A program made the translations under genes and the position numbers. A stretch of DNA of 39,083 bases from an uncultured Eubacteriales bacterium (GTDB lineage Bacteria > Bacillota > Clostridia > Christensenellales > RUG350), in NCBI GenBank assembly GCA_900315995.1, contig ONBF01000016.1:1-39083 (forward strand), given 5' to 3'. Positions 8,575-26,618 of this stretch are shown here, piece by piece. The notes under the pieces are model-generated. The model was not told the origin of the DNA and ran no database searches. It saw only the letters and a program-made list of their open reading frames with translations. Every line of letters starts with the position of its first letter. Position 1 is the first letter of the stretch.

Positions 8575-9537
8575 ATGAAGAAAATTGCAGTATTGACAAG
8601 CGGTGGCGATGCCCCCGGGATGAACGCTTGTATAAGAGCGGTCGTTCGTTACGCAATATATAACGAACTTACCGTATACGGCGTGGAAAGAGGTTATAAC
8701 GGACTTATCAACAACAATATGAAAATACTCGACAGACGTTCGGTCGGAGATATGATTCATAGAGGCGGAACGTTTCTGAAAACCGCAAGGTGCGCGGAGT
8801 TCAATACTCTCGAAGGTCAGCGTGAAGCCGCACGCGTTATCAGAGAACGCGATATAGACGGACTTGTGGTTATCGGCGGAGACGGAAGTATGAGAGGCGC
8901 AAGAGACTTAACGGTCAATTTCGGAATACCCACGGTCGGTATTCCGGGGACAATAGATAACGATCTTGCGTATACGGATTATACGCTCGGTTTCGATACG
9001 GCAGTCAATACGGCTTTGTCGGCAATCAACAATTTAAGGGACACGATGACGTCGCACGACAGAGTATGTATCATAGAAGTTATGGGCAGACATTGCGGAG
9101 ACATAGCGTTGTACGCGGGACTTGCCGGCGGTGCGGAAGAAATACTCGTTCCCGAGATGCCGCTTGATATAGACGCGATTGCGGATAAGCTGAAACAAGG
9201 TGCGTCGCGCGGTAAGATGTCGAGTATGATAGTGCTTGCCGAGGGCGCGGGAAAGGCGGGAGACGTCGCTAAACTTATCGAAGAGAAAACGGGTGCGTCT
9301 ATTCGTATTACGACGCTCGGTCATATTCAACGTGGCGGTATGCCTACTATGGCGGACAGAGTGCTTGCCGCTAAATTTGCCGTTCGTGCGGTTGAACTTT
9401 TGAAAGAAGGTAAAGGCAATCGCGTTATCGGTATTCGCGACAACAAGGTAATAGATATGGATATAGTAGAAGGACTTTCTATGAAACGTGAGTTTGACGA
9501 ATATCTCTACAACGTTGCGGCAGTTCTGAGTTTGTAA
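8575..9537 (+). CDS. pfkA: ATP-dependent 6-phosphofructokinase PfkA
   Basis: PfkA phosphorylates fructose 6-phosphate to fructose 1,6-bisphosphate, the committed step of glycolysis. The 320-residue protein has the short bacterial length. GGDGS at 101-105 has glycine at 104, the residue that marks ATP use, and PGTIDND (124-130) holds the catalytic aspartate; PPi enzymes have GGDD/GGND and K in the second motif. [10 protein letters not shown] and the C-terminal GHIQRGG are also present. A longer frame begins at 8524, but GGGAGA before the ATG at 8575 and the family N-terminus ([17 protein letters not shown]) fix this start. It is followed directly by the PPi-type enzyme. Confidence 0.95.
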
Positions 9538-13905: not shown

Positions 13906-15609
13906 ATGCCGACGCTGGAATGGATAGGAAAAGATAAAGTCATAAATCATCATCAAGAAGTGCCGTATCGGATTCTTGATAAAAAGTATACATACAATGC
14001 CGAGTCGTCCGAGAATATGATCATTCACGGCGATAATCTTCTTGCGCTCAAATCGTTGTTGCCGCAATATGAAGGCAAAGTGGATTGTATCTATATCGAT
14101 CCGCCGTACAATACCGGAAAAAAAGAAGGGCAATGGGTGTATAGTGATAATGTCGATGATCCAAGGATAAAAAAATGGCTTGGTCAAGTAGTTGGGGCAG
14201 AAGGTGAAGATTTGTCAAGGCACGATAAATGGCTTTGTATGATGTATCCAAGACTAAAACTTCTACATAAACTCCTTTCATCTTCAGGTGTGATTTTCAT
14301 TAGCATCGACGATAATGAATTATATAGTCTTAAAATTTGTTGTGACGAAATATTCGGTGTAAGTAATTATATTGGATTGCTATCGGTTGAGATTAATCCT
14401 AAAGGGAGAAAGAATTCGGACTTTATTTCTATTAGCAATGATTATTGCTTAATATACGCTAAAAATAAAAAAGACATCTATTTTTTAGAGAATATTCCCA
14501 AAGATAAAAAGGATTTGTCGGTTGATGAAAACGGGAATTTAGTTCATAATAGTGGCAAACGTGTTCTAGTTGGTGAAAATTCATTCAATAATGAAATAGA
14601 AGATTTTAATTCTAAAAAGCATTATACTGTTTACTATAACGCTGAAAAAGACGACTTAGTATTAAAAAAAGAAACTTCATTAAGTGAGATAGATGAGGAT
14701 TTGGTTTCTAAGGGATACAGAAGGTACTATTCCTATTCAGGTGATAAGTTTGTTGAGAATACTTATACCGCTGAAAAAATAGTTGAACTATTTGACAATA
14801 AAGCGTTGGATTTCAAGAACGGAAAAATCTATGAAAAGAATTTTAGTAGTTCTATTAGAATCAAAAGTATTCTTTCAAACAGAAGTTACCAAACTTACGA
14901 TTTAAATGGAAATATTATAGATTATAAGATAGATGTTAAGACTACTTCAGCGGGACAAGAATTAAAGGATATTTTTGAAACTACCGTAACTATTTTTAAC
15001 AATCCTAAAAATAAAGGGTTGATAGAAATATTGATTTCGTTAATTGATAATAAAAATGCTTTAGTCTTAGACTCCTTTGCCGGTTCTAGCACAACTGCTC
15101 ATGCAGTCTTAGATTTAAACAAGCAAGATGGCGGCAATCGGAAGTTTATCCTTGTGGAGATGATGGACTATGCCGAAACCATCACTGCCGAACGCGTCAA
15201 GCGTGTGATCGACGGCTACGGCGAGGGCAACAAGGCTGTTGCGGGACTTGGCGGAGATTTCAGTTATTACGAACTTGGCGAACCACTTTTCAAAGAAGAC
15301 AAAAACTTGAATGAAGAAGTCGGCGAAGACGAGATCCGCAAATATGTCTATTATATGGAAACGAAACTGCCACTCGAAGTGGGCGCGGATGACAACCGCT
15401 ATTATATGGGTAAAGCCAACGATACAGCGTACTATTTCTATTATGAAAAGGACAAGCCCACAACGCTGAACAGAGAGTTTCTTTCAACGGTGAAAACAAA
15501 AGCAAGCGGATACCTTATTTATGCGGACGTTTGCGCTTTGCCAAAAGAAACACTCGATAAAAACGGAATTGTGTTTAAGAAAATTCCACGCGACATTAAG
15601 AAACTGTAA
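13906..15609 (+). CDS. mod: Type III restriction-modification Mod subunit (adenine-N6 methyltransferase)
   Basis: This 567-residue Mod protein transfers a methyl group to adenine in a short asymmetric site and gives the Mod2Res complex its specificity. The catalytic motif DPPYNTG is at 65-71 and the AdoMet-binding motif DSFAGSSTTAHAV starts at D389, the beta-class order (motif IV before motif I). The target recognition region between them (about 80-385) is visibly AT-richer and uses different codons (AAA, AAT, TTA, AGT) from the ends (CGC, GAC, GGC). This suggests that the recognition domain was swapped by recombination. GGAGG gives a strong ribosome site. res follows after 11 bp. Confidence 0.93.
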   Translation: MPTLEWIGKDKVINHHQEVPYRILDKKYTYNAESSENMIIHGDNLLALKSLLPQYEGKVDCIYIDPPYNTGKKEGQWVYSDNVDDPRIKKWLGQVVGAEGEDLSRHDKWLCMMYPRLKLLHKLLSSSGVIFISIDDNELYSLKICCDEIFGVSNYIGLLSVEINPKGRKNSDFISISNDYCLIYAKNKKDIYFLENIPKDKKDLSVDENGNLVHNSGKRVLVGENSFNNEIEDFNSKKHYTVYYNAEKDDLVLKKETSLSEIDEDLVSKGYRRYYSYSGDKFVENTYTAEKIVELFDNKALDFKNGKIYEKNFSSSIRIKSILSNRSYQTYDLNGNIIDYKIDVKTTSAGQELKDIFETTVTIFNNPKNKGLIEILISLIDNKNALVLDSFAGSSTTAHAVLDLNKQDGGNRKFILVEMMDYAETITAERVKRVIDGYGEGNKAVAGLGGDFSYYELGEPLFKEDKNLNEEVGEDEIRKYVYYMETKLPLEVGADDNRYYMGKANDTAYYFYYEKDKPTTLNREFLSTVKTKASGYLIYADVCALPKETLDKNGIVFKKIPRDIKKL

Positions 15610-15620
15610 GAGGTGTTTTT

Positions 15621-18170
15621 ATGGAACTGAAAAGATTTCAAAGAGATGTAATAAACGATCTCAATCGCTATTGTGAACTGTTGAATACTACCAACAGCGT
15701 TTCGGGTGCCTATACAGAGTTTTGGGCGGAGAAAAACGTTCACGTCGGATTCGGTGCAATTCCGCCGTATAAGAACACGATAGAAAACACGCCGCACGTT
15801 TGTTTCAAAGTGCCAACGGGCGGCGGCAAAACCTTTTTGGCGTGCAATGCGCTGAAAACTATTTTTGACAACTTGCCGAGCAAGAAAGCAAAGTTGGTCG
15901 TTTGGCTTGTGCCGTCGGAAGCCATTTTAACGCAAACGCTGAAAAACCTTTCCGATCCGTCGCACCCCTATCGTCAAAAGATTGAAACGCATTTCAACGG
16001 GCGCGTGCAAGTATATGACAAGCAACAAGTTTTGGACGGGCAACAGTTTAATCCAACGACGGTAAACGAACAACTTTGTATTGTCGTAATGAGTTTTGAC
16101 AGTTTCCGTATTCGCAATAAAGAAGGCAGAAAGGTATATCAAGAGAACGGTAATCTTCAATCGTTCACAAAATGTATCGAAACGCCAGACACGTTGATTG
16201 ACAACGTGGATGAAACCGCGCTTATTCAAGTGTTCAATCAACTTTCGCCCGTTGTGATCGTGGACGAAAGCCATCACACGACGGGCGATCTCAGCGTCGA
16301 GATGTTGAGAAATCTCAATCCGAGTTTTATTCTCGATTTGACGGCGACGCCGCGTGAAAACAGCAATATAATTTCTTATGTGGACGCCGCGCAACTCAAA
16401 GCGGAGAATATGGTTAAATTACCCGTTATCGTCTATAATCGTCCGTCGCAAGAAGAAGTGATCGCCGACGCGTTGGATTTGCGAAACAAGTTGGACGAAC
16501 TTGCGCGGTCGAAATCGGACGGGGGATATATTCGTCCTATCGTATTGTTTCAAGCGCAACCGAAGCAGGCGGAGAATAAAGAAACGTTTGAAAAATTGAA
16601 GAAACGGCTTGTAGATAACGGTATCCCCGAAGAAGAGATTGCCATCAAAACGGCGGAAATAAACGAACTGAAAAACATTGATTTACAATCTCCCGATTGC
16701 AAAATCAAGTACATAATTACGGTAAACGCTTTGAAAGAAGGTTGGGACTGTCCGTTTGCGTATATCCTTGCAACTCTTGCAAATAAGACTTCGACTGTGG
16801 ACGTGGAACAGATTTTGGGACGTGTTTTGCGTTTGCCTTATACACAACAAAACGAAAGTAAGTTTTTGAATTTGTCGTATGTGCTGACTTGTTCTAACGA
16901 CTTTCATACGACGATCACAAAGGTTATTAAGGGTTTGAACGACGCGGGCTTTAGTGAAAAGGAATATCGTATTGCCGAAGAAAAGCTGGTTGTCGCACCT
17001 GCGCCGGAGCTTGTTCAAACGCAAATGCAACTTGACGATGATAGCAACGAAGAGGAGTTCTTGCAGTTTGACGACAGCGCACTCAAGAGTATAATCGAAG
17101 AACGCAAGAACACGACGGAAACGACGTCGGCTATTGACACCATGCTTTCCGGTGCGGAAGCAAGCAGTGACGCTTATGACGAAGCGATGAAACAGGCGAC
17201 GGAAGAGCCTGCCGGAGATTTACCTTTGGAGGTGAGAAGTAAAGTGACTACCTACCGCATGTATGAACAATTCAAAGATGAAGCATTATCTCTTGAAATC
17301 CCGCAATTCTTTATCAAAGGATTGCCAAGTCTGTTTACACTTGACGATCCCGACCACAAAGATTTGCTTACCAAAGAAGAACTGACGAATGGGTTCACGT
17401 TGAAAGATAAGGACGCAACTGTTGATTTCAGCGCGGCGCTTGAGTCCGTCGTGGAAGTGGACGTACGGAAAAACGAAAAGCCGAAGCCCGAAAGTCGCGT
17501 AAAAGAGTGCAAGGCTAAGATAAAGGATATGCTTGAAAAAATCGATTGCGTCGCGGGTAGTGATTTGACTGCGTATATTAACCGTATTGTCGAGAATATG
17601 AACGGTGACGAACTCGCCGCAATGGAAAAGAATTTGTATGGCTATTCTATGAAGATTCGTGCAAAAATAGATTGGTTAATAGAAGAATATCGTGTACAGC
17701 GATTCAAACATCTGCTTGAAACGGGCACGGTGGAGTGTTTACCGTCGTTCCGTCTGAGCAGAGAAATCAATCCGGGAAAACCTTTCGGCGCTTTGGATAA
17801 ATCACTGTATGTCGAAGAACAAGAAGTAAACGGTTTTGAATTGCAAGTTATAGAGAAAGTCGCTTCTTTGCCAAACGTTAAGTGGTGGCATAGGAATATG
17901 GAGAGAACGGAATTTTGTATCAACGGTTATCTTAATCACTATCCCGACTTTATGGTTATGACAAACAGCGGCAAGGTTGTTATGATTGAAACTAAAGGCG
18001 AACATTTGACCTCCAACGACGACAGCCGTGCCAAAGCCGAACTCGGCAAGATTTGGCAAGCGCAAGCAGGCGCGAAATATCGTTATTATATGGTCAGCGC
18101 AGAACATATCAACGGCAATCCCGATGCAACGGCGTTGGACGCTTTTTTGCGGATAATGAAAGAGCTTTAA
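15621..18170 (+). CDS. res: Type III restriction-modification Res subunit (helicase/nuclease)
   Basis: Res is the ATP-dependent translocase and endonuclease partner of Mod. The 849-residue protein contains an SF2 helicase core: Walker A VPTGGGKT (64-71), DESHH (215-219), TATPR (241-245) and the motif VI stretch VEQILGRVLRLP near 393-404. At the C-terminus a PD-(D/E)xK nuclease is visible as PDF (775-777), then E790-T-K792. All catalytic parts look intact and the frame is unbroken, so the system is probably active if Mod pairs with it. AGAGGTG precedes the start. The gene ends 73 bp before the convergent hydF stop. Confidence 0.94.
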   Translation: MELKRFQRDVINDLNRYCELLNTTNSVSGAYTEFWAEKNVHVGFGAIPPYKNTIENTPHVCFKVPTGGGKTFLACNALKTIFDNLPSKKAKLVVWLVPSEAILTQTLKNLSDPSHPYRQKIETHFNGRVQVYDKQQVLDGQQFNPTTVNEQLCIVVMSFDSFRIRNKEGRKVYQENGNLQSFTKCIETPDTLIDNVDETALIQVFNQLSPVVIVDESHHTTGDLSVEMLRNLNPSFILDLTATPRENSNIISYVDAAQLKAENMVKLPVIVYNRPSQEEVIADALDLRNKLDELARSKSDGGYIRPIVLFQAQPKQAENKETFEKLKKRLVDNGIPEEEIAIKTAEINELKNIDLQSPDCKIKYIITVNALKEGWDCPFAYILATLANKTSTVDVEQILGRVLRLPYTQQNESKFLNLSYVLTCSNDFHTTITKVIKGLNDAGFSEKEYRIAEEKLVVAPAPELVQTQMQLDDDSNEEEFLQFDDSALKSIIEERKNTTETTSAIDTMLSGAEASSDAYDEAMKQATEEPAGDLPLEVRSKVTTYRMYEQFKDEALSLEIPQFFIKGLPSLFTLDDPDHKDLLTKEELTNGFTLKDKDATVDFSAALESVVEVDVRKNEKPKPESRVKECKAKIKDMLEKIDCVAGSDLTAYINRIVENMNGDELAAMEKNLYGYSMKIRAKIDWLIEEYRVQRFKHLLETGTVECLPSFRLSREINPGKPFGALDKSLYVEEQEVNGFELQVIEKVASLPNVKWWHRNMERTEFCINGYLNHYPDFMVMTNSGKVVMIETKGEHLTSNDDSRAKAELGKIWQAQAGAKYRYYMVSAEHINGNPDATALDAFLRIMKEL

Positions 18171-18243: not shown

Positions 18244-19446
18244 TTATTGATAAACGGGAAGTGAAAACTTCAAAGCTTTGAGACTTCTTTCCAAAATCCC
18301 GTGCATATGCGCGATGGCTACGCCGTAATTGACTATCGGAACGTTCGCATTACGGGCGATGGACAGTCGCGCGTTCATTTCCGCTTCGTTCAGCATACAA
18401 CCGCCGCAATGTACAATCAAGGCGTATTCTTTAAGATCGGACGGGAAATCGTTACCCGAAGTAAAATTAAATTCAAGATTGGCTTTTGTGAATTTTTCAA
18501 TCCACATCGGAAGTTTGACCGTTCCTATATCGTTGCATTGACGGTGATGCGTACATCCTTCCGAGATTAACACTTTATCGCCGTTTTTCAATTCGGAAAG
18601 AGCGGTTGCGCCGTGCACGAGAATTTCGAGAGTGCCTTTGTAACGCGCGAAAAGAATAGAGAAAGAAGTCAAAGGTATACTTTCGTCAACTGTTTTCGAC
18701 ACGGTTTCGAAGACTTGCGAATCGGTGATGACAAGTTTTGGTTTTTTGATAAGATTATCGAGAGTGTTTTTGAGTTCGGTCGGTTGACAACAGACTACGG
18801 CGCAATGAATATCCAACAATTCGCGCAACGTTTGTTGTTGTGGCAGAATCAATCTGCCTTTCGGTGCCGATTCGTCTATCGGCATAACCAAAACAACGGT
18901 ATCGCCGCGTTCAACAAGATCTGCGGCAATCATTTTTTGCTTATTTTTCGGTGTGATGAATTTCCCCAAAAGTTCTTTGAGTTTCCAAACGTTCTCTCCT
19001 GTTTTTGCGCTGACGTATAGTTCGTTTTCTTTCAAAGCGTTGCGTTCTGAAAGCAGATCCGCTTTATTATACGCAATTATAAACGGGGTATTTCTTTCTT
19101 GAAACAAAGAGAGAAGCTTTTTGTCGGTTTCGGTAATTCCCGCGGTCGCGTCCGCTACCAATACGGCAATATCCGTCTTACGTAGGCACGCGACGGTTTT
19201 TTCGACGCGCATTTCGCCGAGTGTTCCTTCGTCATCGAATCCGGGAGTGTCGATTATCGAAACGGGACCCAACGGCAAGAGTTCCATTGCTTTTTGTACG
19301 GGATCGGTCGTCGTCCCTTTGATATCCGATACAATGGAAAGTTTTTGTCCCGTAACGGCGTTTACCAAACTTGATTTTCCCGCGTTGCGCAACCCGAAGA
19401 AGCCGATATTAATTCGTTCTGCCGAAACTGTTTCGTTCAAACTCAT
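18244..19446 (-). CDS. hydF: [FeFe]-hydrogenase maturation GTPase HydF
   Basis: HydF is the scaffold on which the 2Fe subcluster is assembled before transfer to the hydrogenase. The 400-residue protein has a GTPase domain with GLRNAGKSS (18-26), DTPGFDDEG and NKAD, then the metal-binding C-terminal domain with the expected ligands C298-T-H300 and C347-x-x-C350. A longer frame opens at 19548, but the family N-terminus (MSLNETVSAERINIGFFG) fits the ATG at 19446, 10 bp behind the hydG stop. The Shine-Dalgarno is weak, so translation may be coupled to hydG. It is the last gene of the minus-strand hyd operon. Confidence 0.95.
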   Translation of the reverse strand: MSLNETVSAERINIGFFGLRNAGKSSLVNAVTGQKLSIVSDIKGTTTDPVQKAMELLPLGPVSIIDTPGFDDEGTLGEMRVEKTVACLRKTDIAVLVADATAGITETDKKLLSLFQERNTPFIIAYNKADLLSERNALKENELYVSAKTGENVWKLKELLGKFITPKNKQKMIAADLVERGDTVVLVMPIDESAPKGRLILPQQQTLRELLDIHCAVVCCQPTELKNTLDNLIKKPKLVITDSQVFETVSKTVDESIPLTSFSILFARYKGTLEILVHGATALSELKNGDKVLISEGCTHHRQCNDIGTVKLPMWIEKFTKANLEFNFTSGNDFPSDLKEYALIVHCGGCMLNEAEMNARLSIARNANVPIVNYGVAIAHMHGILERSLKALKFSLPVYQ

Positions 19447-19456
19447 AATGCTATAC

Positions 19457-20914
19457 TCAAAACCGAAAATCTCTGTGATCCGTGTTAATGATTTCCCGAA
19501 TATTACGTTCCGTAATCGTTCGTATTTTTTCATTGGGGATGCGCGCAAGTTCGTTTTCTATCATTTTATATCCGACGGTTTTTGTTTCGTGAGAAGCATA
19601 ATCTTGAAGATATTCCGATAAAGTCATCAACGCGTTTGGATGGCAGCAATTCAAAATTTGTCCGCTTTTACATAAACTCATAAAGCGGTCACCCGTACGT
19701 CCTTCGCGATAGCAAGCCGTACAAAAAGACGGGATGTGTCCGTTTTCTATCAACCAGCGAACGACTTCGTCGAGAGAGCGTTGATCCGAAACGTCGAATT
19801 GTTCCGTGTCGTGCGGACGATTTTCGGCGGAATATCCCGCATAACCGCCCACGCTTGTTCGCGATCCGCCGCTTACTTGTGAAATTCCGAGACGCAAAAG
19901 GCGGGAGCGCGTTTTTTCCGTCTCACGAGTGGAAATGATTATTCCGGTGTAAGGGACGGCAAGGCGAATACACGCGGTAATCTTGGCAAACGTGTCGTCG
20001 TCTATTCCGCCGTCAAAATTGTTCGGATCGATACCGTCGGCTTGTTTTATACGGGGGACGCTGATTGTATGCGGTCCGACGCCATAAACGGCTTCGAGAT
20101 GTTCCGCATGCATCAATAGTCCCGTAAATTCGTATTTATAATTTTCCAACCCGAACAAAACGCCCAAACCGACGTCGTCTATTCCACCCTCTACTGCGCG
20201 ATCCATTGCTTCGGTATGATAAATGTAATCGTGTTTCGGACCCGTCGGATGCAAAGCAAGATATTTCTCTTTATGATAGGTCTCTTGGAAAAGTATATAT
20301 GTTCCTATGCCCGCATCTTTAAGTTTACGATAGTTTTCAACGGTTGTAGCGGCGATATTGACGTTAACGCGACGTATATCTCCGTTTTTGCTGTGGACGC
20401 CGTAGATAGTTCCGATACAGTCGAGTATATATTCAATCGGATTGTTTACGGGGTCTTCGCCCGCTTCGATTGCAAGGCGTTTATGTCCCATATCTTGCAA
20501 GGCGATGACTTCTTCTCTGACTTGCTCTTGCGTGAGTTTTTTGCGCGGTATATTATTGTTTTTAATGTGATACGGACAGTATACGCAACCGTTTACGCAG
20601 TAATTGGAAAGATACAAAGGCGCGAAGATTACGATACGATTGCCGTAAAATGCAAGTTTGATTTCTTCCGCGATTTTTTCGATTTCCCGATTGATTTCCG
20701 AATCTTCCGATGCGAGCAAAACAGAAGCTTCTCTATGCGTTAAACCACGGCATTTGTATCCCGTTTTACATTTTATCGGGCGCGCTTTTTCAAGGATTTC
20801 GCGGATTAGCGGAAGATCGTTTTTGTGTTTTTCGGCATAGGCGAGAGTTTCTCGAATCTCGTTATCGTTTATAAACGTTTCCGCATACATTGACTTCGGG
20901 TCATAAATTGGCAT
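19457..20914 (-). CDS. hydG: [FeFe]-hydrogenase maturase HydG (tyrosine lyase)
   Basis: HydG is a radical SAM enzyme that cleaves tyrosine to give the CO and CN ligands of the H-cluster, with p-cresol as by-product. In this 485-residue protein the SAM cluster motif is C106-x3-C110-x2-C113 (CVNGCVYC). The C-terminal region has the cysteines of the second, dangler-iron cluster (FCTACYREGRTGDRF). The start has AGGAGG well placed. It sits between hydE and hydF with 25 and 10 bp gaps, and all three share one transcript. Length and motifs agree with the true HydG rather than the related ThiH. Confidence 0.96.
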   Translation of the reverse strand: MPIYDPKSMYAETFINDNEIRETLAYAEKHKNDLPLIREILEKARPIKCKTGYKCRGLTHREASVLLASEDSEINREIEKIAEEIKLAFYGNRIVIFAPLYLSNYCVNGCVYCPYHIKNNNIPRKKLTQEQVREEVIALQDMGHKRLAIEAGEDPVNNPIEYILDCIGTIYGVHSKNGDIRRVNVNIAATTVENYRKLKDAGIGTYILFQETYHKEKYLALHPTGPKHDYIYHTEAMDRAVEGGIDDVGLGVLFGLENYKYEFTGLLMHAEHLEAVYGVGPHTISVPRIKQADGIDPNNFDGGIDDDTFAKITACIRLAVPYTGIIISTRETEKTRSRLLRLGISQVSGGSRTSVGGYAGYSAENRPHDTEQFDVSDQRSLDEVVRWLIENGHIPSFCTACYREGRTGDRFMSLCKSGQILNCCHPNALMTLSEYLQDYASHETKTVGYKMIENELARIPNEKIRTITERNIREIINTDHRDFRF

Positions 20915-20939: not shown

Positions 20940-21995
20940 TTAAGTTGTTTTTACGGGATCGCCACGAGACGTGACAATACGGTATCCGATGGAGTCGATT
21001 CGCTTTTTGAGACAAGCAAGACACAGTGTCGGTTCTTCTTCCGTGCAAATCTTTCCATCATATAATATGTAATTTGTTTTTGCGGAAAGCGGCGAGATAT
21101 TCGGCATAACGACGTTTGCGCCCGCCGAAATTCCGCGTTCTCTTCCGTGTGGGGTGACGGTGGCAAGTGCCGTTGTCGCGGGAAGTAAAACGCTTGGCAA
21201 AATAAGTCTGATAACGGATAAAAGAAAAATCGTCAATTCGGCAGTACCGCTTTTCATATTGCAAAAGGGTGTGTTTTTGTGTGAAATGAAAGGACCTATT
21301 CCGCACATTTCGGGACGAAACGTTTCAAGGAAAAAAAGGTCTTTTGCAATAATTTCAGGCGTTTGATACGGCGATCCGACCATAAATCCGCAACCGACTT
21401 GATAGCCGATTTCGCGAAGATTATATAAACATTGTATTCTGTTTTCAAATGAACAGTCCACGGGGTGAAGTTTTCCGTAATGAACTGCGTCCGCGGTTTC
21501 GTGGCGCAAAAGATAGCGATCTGCTCCCGCTTGAAACAATTTTCGGAAACTTATTTTTCCGCGTTCGCCGAGAGATAGCGTAATTGCGCAATCGGGATAG
21601 AGTGCTTTTACAGTCGAAATCAAATCGCAAAGCAAATCATCGGTGTAGAAAGAGTCCTCTCCGCCTTGTAACACAAAAGTTCTGATTCCCAAAGCGTACC
21701 CACTTTTGCAACAAGCAAGTATATCTTCCGCCGAAAGACGATACCTTTTGCATTTTTTATTACTTCGACGAATACCGCAATAAAAGCAATCATTTTTGCA
21801 GTAATTGCTTATTTCGATCAATCCGCGAACGTAAACGTCATTGCCGTACACGCTTTTGCGGACGTTTTCCGCATGTTCTTGTAAGAATTTTGCGGTTGTA
21901 TCCGTTCTGTATCTTATAAGCTCCGCATATTCTTCGACTTTGAGACTATGTTGCTCCGCAAGTTTTTTCGCGAGAAAAAGCGATCGATTATTCAT
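20940..21995 (-). CDS. hydE: [FeFe]-hydrogenase maturase HydE
   Basis: HydE is a radical SAM protein acting between HydG and HydF in building the dithiomethylamine-bridged diiron centre. The 351-residue protein has C66-x3-C70-x2-C73 (CKNDCFYC) near the start of a TIM-barrel, plus FVLQGGEDSFY and SLGERG, both usual for HydE. Its ATG overlaps the stop of the upstream regulator (ATGA), so translation is coupled. Context with hydG and hydF removes the ambiguity with biotin synthase and PylB. Confidence 0.95.
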   Translation of the reverse strand: MNNRSLFLAKKLAEQHSLKVEEYAELIRYRTDTTAKFLQEHAENVRKSVYGNDVYVRGLIEISNYCKNDCFYCGIRRSNKKCKRYRLSAEDILACCKSGYALGIRTFVLQGGEDSFYTDDLLCDLISTVKALYPDCAITLSLGERGKISFRKLFQAGADRYLLRHETADAVHYGKLHPVDCSFENRIQCLYNLREIGYQVGCGFMVGSPYQTPEIIAKDLFFLETFRPEMCGIGPFISHKNTPFCNMKSGTAELTIFLLSVIRLILPSVLLPATTALATVTPHGRERGISAGANVVMPNISPLSAKTNYILYDGKICTEEEPTLCLACLKKRIDSIGYRIVTSRGDPVKTT

Positions 21996-22237
21996 TTTGA
22001 AGATAGCGCGGTTTTAACGCTGAGTCCGGGTATCGATCCGATTTTGCCGGCGAGTGAAGAAATAATATCCTGTGGCGCGTCGAGCGCAATGCAAATTACG
22101 TTAATGTTTTTTTCTTTATAAGGTATTCCCATTCGCCCGATAATAAACTGACGATATTCGTGAAGAATATCGTTAAGTTTATCCACGGATTCTTGTTTTT
22201 CCACTATGATGCTGATAACAGCTACTCTCGTTATAAT
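21992..22237 (-). CDS. TM1266-type iron-only hydrogenase system regulator, non-AUG start
   Basis: This small ACT-fold protein is about 81 residues long. It belongs to the family found with hydEGF and called a putative iron-only hydrogenase system regulator (TM1266, TIGR03959). The core reads LNDILHEYRQFIIGRMGIPY...GKIGSIPGLSVKTAL. The first canonical start is a GTG at 22204, but it has no ribosome site and would drop the first beta strand (TRVAVISIIVE), which the family needs. A strong GGGAGG at 22245-22250 stands 7 bases before an ATT at 22237 (ATA codons on either side), and no ATG lies between it and an upstream stop. I therefore place the start at ATT. It overlaps hydE by 4 nt. Confidence 0.8.
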   Translation of the reverse strand: MITRVAVISIIVEKQESVDKLNDILHEYRQFIIGRMGIPYKEKNINVICIALDAPQDIISSLAGKIGSIPGLSVKTALSSK

Positions 22238-22366
22238 TATTTTACCTCCCGATATATTTCGTTATTATAAAAAATCGCCGTACGACAAAAAGTACGGCAA
22301 TCAAAAAATATTTGAATCGACGTACCTTTCGCGCAGCTTTCGCTTTGAGTCAGGAACAACATTTTT
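22238..22366 (-). promoter_or_regulatory. hyd operon leader with transcription attenuator
   Basis: The 5' leader (about 120 nt, minus strand) contains an intrinsic terminator: stem GCCGTAC (22298-22292) / GTACGGC (22283-22277), then GA and six Ts ending at 22269. An upstream segment CGAAAGGTACG (22331-22321) can pair with CGTACTTTTTG (22296-22286) over 11 continuous pairs with two G-U. That antiterminator helix uses the terminator's 5' arm, so the two are exclusive. Upstream still, AGC-GAAA-GCT forms a small hairpin. The architecture is that of a riboswitch or protein-bound attenuator. I could not match it to a known class. Confidence 0.6.
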
Positions 22367-22395
22367 ATCATACAAACGTATCTTGAATTTGTCAA
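22367..22395 (-). promoter_or_regulatory. hyd operon promoter
   Basis: On the minus strand, a perfect TTGACA (22395-22390), a 17-bp spacer and TATGAT (22372-22367) give a strong promoter. It would start transcription near 22360, upstream of the attenuator-like leader. Confidence 0.8.
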
Positions 22396-22450
22396 GTGAG
22401 TTTTTATTTTTTCGGCTTGGTTTTTTATCAAATCAACGAGTAAACTACGC

Positions 22451-22478
22451 TTGACGTAAAAAACAAATATAATATAAT
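22451..22478 (+). promoter_or_regulatory. Promoter of the YdeI-like gene
   Basis: TTGACG (22451-22456), a 16-bp spacer and TATAAT (22473-22478) stand 61 bp before the ATG at 22540. It diverges from the hyd promoter. Confidence 0.65.
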
Positions 22479-22539
22479 TAAAACAGACGGGGAAAAACCA
22501 CGATAACATTGCAAGAGGCAAAATTATAATCGGAAAACA

Positions 22540-23106
22540 ATGGATAAACAAATTTTGTACTGTAAAGACCGCAAAGAGTGGCGGGAGTGGCTTAGTACAC
22601 ACTTTGAGACGGAAAGCGAGATATGGTTCGTATTTCCGACGTTATCGTCGGGAGAAGTCGGCGTTACTTATAACGACGCTGTCGAAGAAGCGTTATGTTT
22701 TAATTGGATAGACGGACAGGCGGGAACTTTGGACGATACGCACCATATACGCCGATTTACGCCGAGACGAAAAGGAAGCGCATTTTCAAGACCGAATATC
22801 GAAAGACTTATTTGGCTCGATAAGCATAATATGTTGCACGAAAGCGTCAAAAAGTCGGTTAAAGATATTATAAACGCGCCGTTTGTCTATCCCGAAGATA
22901 TAATCGACGCGATTAAAAGCGATAAAGTCGCGTGGAAAAATTACAATGCTTTTACGGAGCCGTATAAGAGAATAAGAGTTGCATACATCGACGCCGCGCG
23001 CAAACGTCCCGATGAATTTCAAAAGAGACTTGATAACTTTATTAATCAAACGAGACAAAATAAATTGATAATAGGTTACGGCGGAATAGAAAAGTATTAT
23101 AATTAA
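22540..23106 (+). CDS. YdeI/OmpD-associated family protein
   Basis: This 188-residue protein matches the family annotated as bacteriocin-protection, YdeI or OmpD-associated. The typical pattern is visible: W-REWL near the start, EIWFVF, YNDAVEEALCFNWIDGQ (46-62), RFTPRRKGSAFSRPNIER and a C-terminal helical end. It has no signal peptide or membrane segment and should be cytoplasmic. The molecular activity of the family is not established, and the name comes from indirect phenotypes. It is expressed from its own promoter divergent to the hyd operon; the ribosome site is weak (CGGA). Confidence 0.8.
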   Translation: MDKQILYCKDRKEWREWLSTHFETESEIWFVFPTLSSGEVGVTYNDAVEEALCFNWIDGQAGTLDDTHHIRRFTPRRKGSAFSRPNIERLIWLDKHNMLHESVKKSVKDIINAPFVYPEDIIDAIKSDKVAWKNYNAFTEPYKRIRVAYIDAARKRPDEFQKRLDNFINQTRQNKLIIGYGGIEKYYN

Positions 23107-25340: not shown

Positions 25341-26618
25341 ATGAAAGGGAAGCGACACACGTTAAATCTTGCGTATATTGCAACGGGCGCGGTGCTTATC
25401 ACCGTTTGTTCGTGGTTAAGCATACCGACCGCCGTACCGTTTACGATGCAGACGTTTGCCGTATTTGCCGTCCTGTGTATGCTCGGCGGAATACGCGGAA
25501 CGGCGTCGATAGTCGTATACATACTGCTCGGCGCAATAGGTTTGCCCGTCTTTGCGGGATTTCAAAACGGCGCGGGCGTAATTATGGGCTTGACCGGCGG
25601 ATATATATTGGGGTTTGTGTTTATCGGACTTATTTATACGCTGTTTGAAAAACTTGTCGGCGCAAAGTTTCCGATTACGATAACGGCGTTAAGTATCGGA
25701 CTTGTTGCGTGCTATGCGTTCGGGACGGTTTGGTTTATGCGTATGTACGCAAAAGACATCGGAGATATAGGTTTGGGTGCAGCGCTTGTTACTTGCGTAC
25801 TGCCGTTTATTATACCCGACGTCGCAAAGATGGCTCTTGCGCTCGTTATATCGTCACGCGTCAGAAAATACATTGTCGCGCCGATTGATAAAAAGGAACG
25901 TAAAGTAAAAGAATTAAATATCAAAGTTGTGTTTGTAGACGTAGACAACACTCTTCTCGATTTCGACGCGTACGTAAAGAGCACTATGAAAGAAGGCTTT
26001 AAGGAGTTTGCCCTTAAACCGTATAAAGATTATATGTTCGACGTGTTTACGAAAGAGAACGACAGGCTGTGGCATATGATTGAAGATAAGACGTTGACGC
26101 TCGAAGAATTGAGAAAAATGCGGTGGAATCTGATATTCAAGTTACTTGACGTTGACGCGGACGGCGAAAAGTTCGAGACGTATTTCAGGGACAAACTGAA
26201 CGACAGCGCAATCGTTATCGACGGAGCAATCGACTTTCTTAAATATTTGCACGAAAAGTATATCGTGTGCGTTGCGAGCAACGGACCGTACGAGCAGCAA
26301 TCAAAGCGACTTAATCTTGCGGGTATGTCGGACTACATCGATTATACGTTCATATCGGAAGATATAGGGGCGAACAAACCCGACAAAGAGTTTTTCGACG
26401 AGTGTATGAAAAGGCTTAATGACGGTAGGGATATAAGAATAAATCCCGACGAGTGTATGATGATAGGCGACTCGTTATCGTCCGACGTCGCGGGCGGAAC
26501 GGCGGCACAAATGAAGACGTGTTTATTCGAGCGCAAAAAGAGCAATAAGAACAAAGGCGTCGATATAAAGCCCGACTATACGATAAAAACTTTGAAAGGA
26601 ATAAGCGATATAATATAA
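25341..26618 (+). CDS. BioY biotin-transporter S component fused to HAD phosphatase
   Basis: One unbroken 425-residue frame joins two families. Residues 1-178 form a BioY-like membrane domain with PFTMQTFAV (33-41), GLPVFAGFQNG (67-77), GLTGGYILGF (83-92) and IIPDVAKMALAL (158-169). A basic linker (KKERKVKEL) leads to a HAD hydrolase: DVDNT nucleophile loop (D200, D202), ASNG (S313), K346 in GANKPD and GDSLSSD (D377, D382). The HAD part resembles YjjG/YfnB nucleotidases with a helical cap. BioY normally binds biotin in an ECF transporter. No stop or ribosome site is seen between the domains. The start has no clear ribosome site and lies 3 bp behind maf, so coupling is likely. Confidence 0.88.
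   Translation: MKGKRHTLNLAYIATGAVLITVCSWLSIPTAVPFTMQTFAVFAVLCMLGGIRGTASIVVYILLGAIGLPVFAGFQNGAGVIMGLTGGYILGFVFIGLIYTLFEKLVGAKFPITITALSIGLVACYAFGTVWFMRMYAKDIGDIGLGAALVTCVLPFIIPDVAKMALALVISSRVRKYIVAPIDKKERKVKELNIKVVFVDVDNTLLDFDAYVKSTMKEGFKEFALKPYKDYMFDVFTKENDRLWHMIEDKTLTLEELRKMRWNLIFKLLDVDADGEKFETYFRDKLNDSAIVIDGAIDFLKYLHEKYIVCVASNGPYEQQSKRLNLAGMSDYIDYTFISEDIGANKPDKEFFDECMKRLNDGRDIRINPDECMMIGDSLSSDVAGGTAAQMKTCLFERKKSNKNKGVDIKPDYTIKTLKGISDII

Follow-up and report, generated by a model that had tools for sequence, protein, structure and literature searches.

On the minus strand of the window (the whole stretch of DNA that was analysed, 39,083 nucleotides of contig ONBF01000016.1 from an uncultured Eubacteriales bacterium), the leader of the hydrogenase-maturation operon belongs to a conserved RNA that is widespread and found in many Clostridia and their relatives. 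Comparison of related leaders makes it very probable that this RNA is a conserved structured attenuator of transcription, in which the 5' end of the mRNA folds into a conserved sensor hairpin of 37 nt. An attenuator with two mutually exclusive folds in front of this operon had been suggested by a first-pass annotation of the window alone, and the comparison of relatives supports that suggestion. To our knowledge, little has been established about how assembly of the [FeFe]-hydrogenase active site is controlled, and TM1266, encoded by the operon's first gene, is described only as a 'putative regulator'.

The leader and the operon in the window

The following features, all on the minus strand, make up the leader and the operon.

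22367-22395, minus strand: promoter TTGACA-17-TATGAT, read from the sequence (TTGACA at 22395-22390, 17-nt spacer, TATGAT at 22372-22367)
22321-22357, minus strand: sensor hairpin of 37 nt (33.4 bits with the R1 model, the sole match in the genome; covariation)
22352-22354, minus strand: 5' strand of helix P1, CCU, pairing with AGG at 22327-22325 (C-G/U-A and U-A/C-G exchanges in relatives)
22325-22327, minus strand: 3' strand of P1, AGG, common to the antiterminator (covariation; own-versus-swapped test)
22335-22344, minus strand: P2 hairpin, AGC-GAAA-GCU (two-sided A-U/G-C and G-C/A-U exchanges in relatives)
22345-22351, minus strand: 5' side of the internal loop, GACUCAA (consensus GACAYNA; alignments A1 and A3)
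22328-22334, minus strand: 3' side of the internal loop, GCGCGAA (consensus GNGUGAA; alignments A1 and A3)
22321-22331, minus strand: 5' strand of the antiterminator, CGAAAGGUACG (fold of the window leader; own-versus-swapped test)
22286-22296, minus strand: 3' strand of the antiterminator, CGUACUUUUUG, overlapping the 5' arm of the terminator (fold; own-versus-swapped test)
22269-22302, minus strand: intrinsic terminator (5' arm 22302-22292, loop 22291-22284, 3' arm 22283-22273, U tract to 22269)
22245-22249, minus strand: Shine-Dalgarno sequence GGAGG, read from the sequence
21992-22237, minus strand: TM1266-family protein, 81 aa (TIGR03959, 115 bits; PF21699, 111 bits; start by alignment)
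20940-21995, minus strand: HydE (TIGR03956, 546.7 bits)
19457-20914, minus strand: HydG (TIGR03955, 869.8 bits)
18244-19548, minus strand: HydF (TIGR03918, 560.4 bits)

Transcription is predicted to start at about 22360 on the minus strand, which gives a leader of ~125 nt. The promoter, the terminator stem, its T6 tail and the GAAA-loop hairpin (AGC-GAAA-GCT, 22344-22335) that the first-pass annotation described are all present on this strand. The 7-bp core of the terminator joins GCCGTAC (22298-22292) to GTACGGC (22283-22277) and can be extended to 11 pairs, two of them G-U, and the GA-T6 that follows ends at 22269. Equally present is the pairing over 11 positions that had been claimed to exclude the terminator fold: CGAAAGGTACG (22331-22321) is complementary to CGTACTTTTTG (22296-22286) on the minus strand, and folding of the same 91 nt yields -24.9 kcal/mol for the antiterminator and -23.8 kcal/mol for the aptamer together with the terminator. 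The window leader is balanced between two nearly isoenergetic, mutually exclusive folds. A possible ligand-binding part had also been placed upstream; a conserved sensor does lie there, but GACTCAAAGCGAAAGC, singled out as a segment of it, is not a separate element: it supplies the 5' half of the internal loop and of P2 within a single hairpin, the conserved unit being the whole of 22357-22321. Taken alone, the window leader is only moderately more stable than its shuffles (z -2.2, 6/200), so that one sequence could not have settled the reality of the feature; the comparison with relatives does.

The operon order is TM1266, HydE, HydG, HydF. The start codon of TM1266 is ATT (22237-22235, minus strand), 7 nt after GGAGG, at the position where relatives have ATG, and no in-frame ATG, GTG or TTG start is found upstream of it; the ATT is either a start codon of a rare kind or the result of an error in the assembly. 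A DNA methylase and a ResIII/DEAD helicase (13906-18170, plus strand), which run convergently to the hyd genes, form a probable type III restriction-modification pair. At 25341-26618 (plus strand), a BioY biotin-transporter domain is fused to a HAD hydrolase in a single frame of 425 aa (Pfam).

The sensor hairpin and its partner strands among relatives

Relatives of HydE were taken from 396 genomes of the order and 80 named contigs, and the leaders that precede TM1266 have in common the block CCUGACAYNA-AGN..NCU-GNGUGAAAGGUGCG. The motif is a hairpin of ~37 nt that consists of P1 (NCCU/AGGN), an internal loop (GACAYNA/GNGUGAA) that is conserved and mostly purine, P2 (AGN/NCU) and a variable tip. 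In an alignment of 34 leaders made by MAFFT, blind to structure, 87% of the cells in P1 and P2 are paired and six of the seven pairs are altered on both sides, with 34 two-sided changed cells as compared to 11.1 in shuffles; shifting the partner by one to three columns lowers the paired cells to 59% or less. The same result is obtained with 67 distinct sequences (64 two-sided changed cells vs 20.3), so the covariation among relatives that the first-pass annotation had proposed as a check is found in both helices of the sensor. P1 comprises only three or four pairs, which counts against the explanation that we consider best. The lengths of the P2 loops vary by single bases among relatives, which indicates that the block is non-coding. 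Thus, the element that one would look for in a riboswitch, a conserved structured aptamer with covariation in a 5' leader, is found here.

The same holds for an expression platform that shares bases with the aptamer. A terminator that reaches the score cut-off is present in 64 of the 68 aligned leaders, usually at a distance of 30-130 nt downstream, and in the relatives' leaders the 5' arm of this terminator can base-pair with the sensor's 3' part. For 61 leaders, pairing GAAAGGNNNN with the terminator arm of the same leader gives a mean of -14.3 kcal/mol, compared to -11.2 kcal/mol when arms are swapped among leaders and -8.5 kcal/mol with shuffled arms; none of 5000 permutations reaches the observed mean for the own arms, a count that is not a strict probability because the leaders are mutually related. 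After subtraction of row and column means, the match to the own arm still amounts to -3.08, with a permutation standard deviation of 0.35. Where the sensor ends in GGCGAA in place of GGUGCG, the terminator arm is usually altered to fit. A good promoter is found just upstream of the motif in the 68 aligned leaders (score 10.5 vs 8.05 shuffled), and its -10 box usually lies 4-9 nt before the first modelled base, so that the predicted transcript appears to begin at the sensor or close to it.

Distribution and gene contexts

Covariance searches that were blind to genes were run at three levels (297 genomes from the order, 391 from the class and 398 from the phylum), and the matches stand almost only before H-cluster maturation genes. 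All 11 matches above 27 bits in the order (window included) do so, as do 12 of the 13 above 26 bits in the class (window excluded), the lone exception, L180, lying inside a coding sequence. Beyond the class, true matches were obtained at L223, L224 and L238. Detection is incomplete: at E 0.02, a match was obtained in 18 of the 40 HydE genomes of the order, a few of these matches being probably chance, and several of the non-matching HydE genomes bear variants of the motif that are visible by eye. Variant leaders whose internal loop is longer by one base on its 3' side, or which have CUGAUACAAAAGG... (L106, L118, L098, L124, L127, L128), are mostly missed by the model, and there may be a second subtype of the motif. 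The contexts in which the motif was found are the following.

TM1266-HydE
TM1266-HydG
HydE without TM1266 (L170)
HydG without TM1266 (L179)
aspartase (aspA)-HydF (L196)
TM1266-FecCD-FecE-HydE-NifH-like-NifD/K-like-binding protein (L197)
the same as L197 but without HydE (L198)

Genes of a single pathway have this RNA in common, both in the commonest unit, which begins with TM1266, and in separate hydE, hydG and aspA-hydF units. The aspartase fits such a regulon, as the dithiomethylamine ligand receives its nitrogen from ammonia-lyases (PMC11736057). TM1266 itself was found in 35 of the 35 motif-bearing genomes tested, usually directly behind the motif and, in G435, G689 and G678, at another place. 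The source genome has one copy of the motif by the model and no second copy by DNA similarity, and the motif is absent from the genome's own [FeFe]-hydrogenase gene (C45).

Several matches were set aside. The weak ones (20-26 bits) without hyd genes are apparently chance; L227 stands before an aspartase but, like L180, lies inside a coding sequence and was left uncounted; and chance probably also accounts for L225, a 28-bit match between yicC-like and remA-like genes. A weak second copy of the motif (19.7 bits) lies between TM1266 and hydE in L202 (G572; 8716-8748, minus strand), with no terminator apparent before hydE. The operon of G135 and G532, with the motif in front, encodes TM1266, a FecCD permease, a NifH-like protein, two nitrogenase-component-1-like proteins and a binding protein, with HydE in G135. 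In these genomes, the FecE-type ABC ATPase carries a C-terminal TM1266 domain (PF21699; L197, 5213-6286, minus strand; L198). The arrangement resembles that of MetN, an importer ATPase with a substrate-sensing domain.

Mechanism, alternatives and relation to known systems

Given that the AGG of P1 also belongs to the antiterminator, a stabilised sensor should favour the terminator. An effector that stabilises the hairpin would hold this AGG and keep it from the antiterminator; the terminator would then form and switch off the maturation genes, whereas without the effector the antiterminator would form and RNA polymerase would read on. Such OFF logic, deduced from the exclusive pairings, is probable. 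With less certainty, the conserved internal loop would itself bind the effector, a small molecule or a metal ion that would report the supply or completion of H-cluster assembly; the RNA would then represent a new riboswitch class. The conservation and mostly purine composition of the internal loop favour a direct ligand, as does the presence of the RNA before hydE, hydG and aspA-hydF units without an adjoining TM1266 gene. Direct ligand binding by this candidate riboswitch is the reading we prefer to control through TM1266, although we consider the chances that it is correct to be evenly balanced. The complete chain of attenuator, OFF logic and a direct ligand related to the H-cluster is about as likely as not to hold. 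More tentatively, a new riboswitch class could directly sense a compound or metal species that is specific to H-cluster assembly, be it an intermediate of maturation, some iron species or a by-product, and, when this is abundant, shut off maturation, the iron/siderophore-type transporter and the nitrogenase-like operon. Two candidates for the ligand were considered and rejected. The FecCDE-type transporter makes iron attractive, but OFF control would mean repression of the maturases, which need iron, just when iron is ample; SAM is disfavoured by the aspA-hydF unit and by the G532 operon, which has neither HydE nor HydG.

Could the sensor be the binding site of a protein instead? TM1266, a small ACT/NikR-C-like protein encoded by the first gene in most of these operons, usually directly behind the motif as pyrR is behind its own attenuator, might bind the sensor as an anti-antiterminator, probably when loaded with a ligand or metal of its own, and cause termination. 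We regard this main rival as rather unlikely. The presence of TM1266 in every motif-bearing genome tested is what a protein effector would require, and to that extent it counts against direct ligand binding, but TM1266 is common with HydE anyway, which makes the co-occurrence weak evidence. A single hairpin with an internal loop is a common shape for protein sites; the Pfam scan detected no DNA-binding domain in TM1266, so some output is needed; and the weak second copy of the motif in G572 lies between TM1266 and hydE. Conversely, no residue position cleanly separates the TM1266 proteins of motif loci from those of non-motif loci, TM1266 is also present without the motif in the Synergistaceae loci L100, L105, L110, L111 and L114, and the TM1266 domain at the C-terminus of an ABC ATPase suggests ligand sensing rather than RNA binding. 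The two readings could also be combined, with TM1266 as a ligand-carrying RNA binder. Control by something else acting in trans, whether a small RNA or an RNA-binding protein other than TM1266, would be compatible with a sensor that is conserved while its tip varies; it appears improbable given that no candidate gene accompanies the motif into all its contexts.

Two further alternatives are very improbable. In leader-peptide attenuation, a ribosome stalling on a short ORF (ATG at 22362) would select the fold, and an open frame (ORF 22237-22602) does span the window leader. Among relatives, however, no conserved short reading frame is found: the single-base differences in P2 loop length break any frame, conservation tracks base pairs and not codons, and an ATG at the predicted transcript start leaves no room for a ribosome site. 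Alternatively, the conserved block, which in most leaders begins 4-9 nt after the -10 box, might be a DNA operator at the transcription start, with the RNA fold being incidental. This is hard to reconcile with the compensatory changes in both helices, with the antiterminator that matches the terminator leader by leader, and with the variable length of P2.

A conserved attenuator before the three maturases, the aspartase and the transporter with a TM1266 domain names a regulon and predicts its logic, namely that the effector leads to termination, and an RNA of 37 nt allows a direct test of the binding of a ligand or of TM1266. The regulon would also place the TM1266-Fec-NifHDK-like operon in the same physiology, a clue to an unexplained nitrogenase-like system.

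As the first-pass annotation had supposed, no known RNA family matches the motif. The window has no match among the 4227 families of Rfam 15 at gathering scores and only chance-level matches over the leader at E<=10, and 20 related loci gave no cis-regulatory match. In the open-access literature, we found no published description of the RNA, an earlier one being possible in the subscription journals and supplements that mostly lie outside that search, and no papers that connect HydE and HydG with a riboswitch in this way or deal with TM1266 regulation. Hydrogenase genes are unmentioned in the main texts of the two GC-IGR surveys, whose riboswitch candidates were likewise found by comparing leaders (PMC8632094, PMC11109978).

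Among known systems, the T-box leader (RF00230) similarly involves a choice between terminator and antiterminator in leaders of Bacillota; unlike it, the motif has no T-box match in Rfam. Small OFF riboswitches that act by termination (preQ1, NAD+ and SAM classes) are comparable in that they have a compact conserved sensor and use bases of its closing helix in the antiterminator as well, but none of their Rfam models matches and the motif is a candidate only. PyrR acts by stabilising an anti-antiterminator (PMC4347634), and the PyrR attenuator of the Bacillus pyr operons (RF00515), like the motif, has a 5' hairpin with a conserved internal loop that serves as the anti-antiterminator and, as we find here, overlaps the antiterminator. 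As in the system proposed here, the regulator gene comes first, several transcription units may have the RNA, and the effector leads to termination. The PyrR attenuator differs in sequence, structure and regulon, RF00515 does not match, and the motif's effector is not known to be a protein. Thus, the anti-antiterminator logic is already known, whereas the sensor and the regulon appear to be new.
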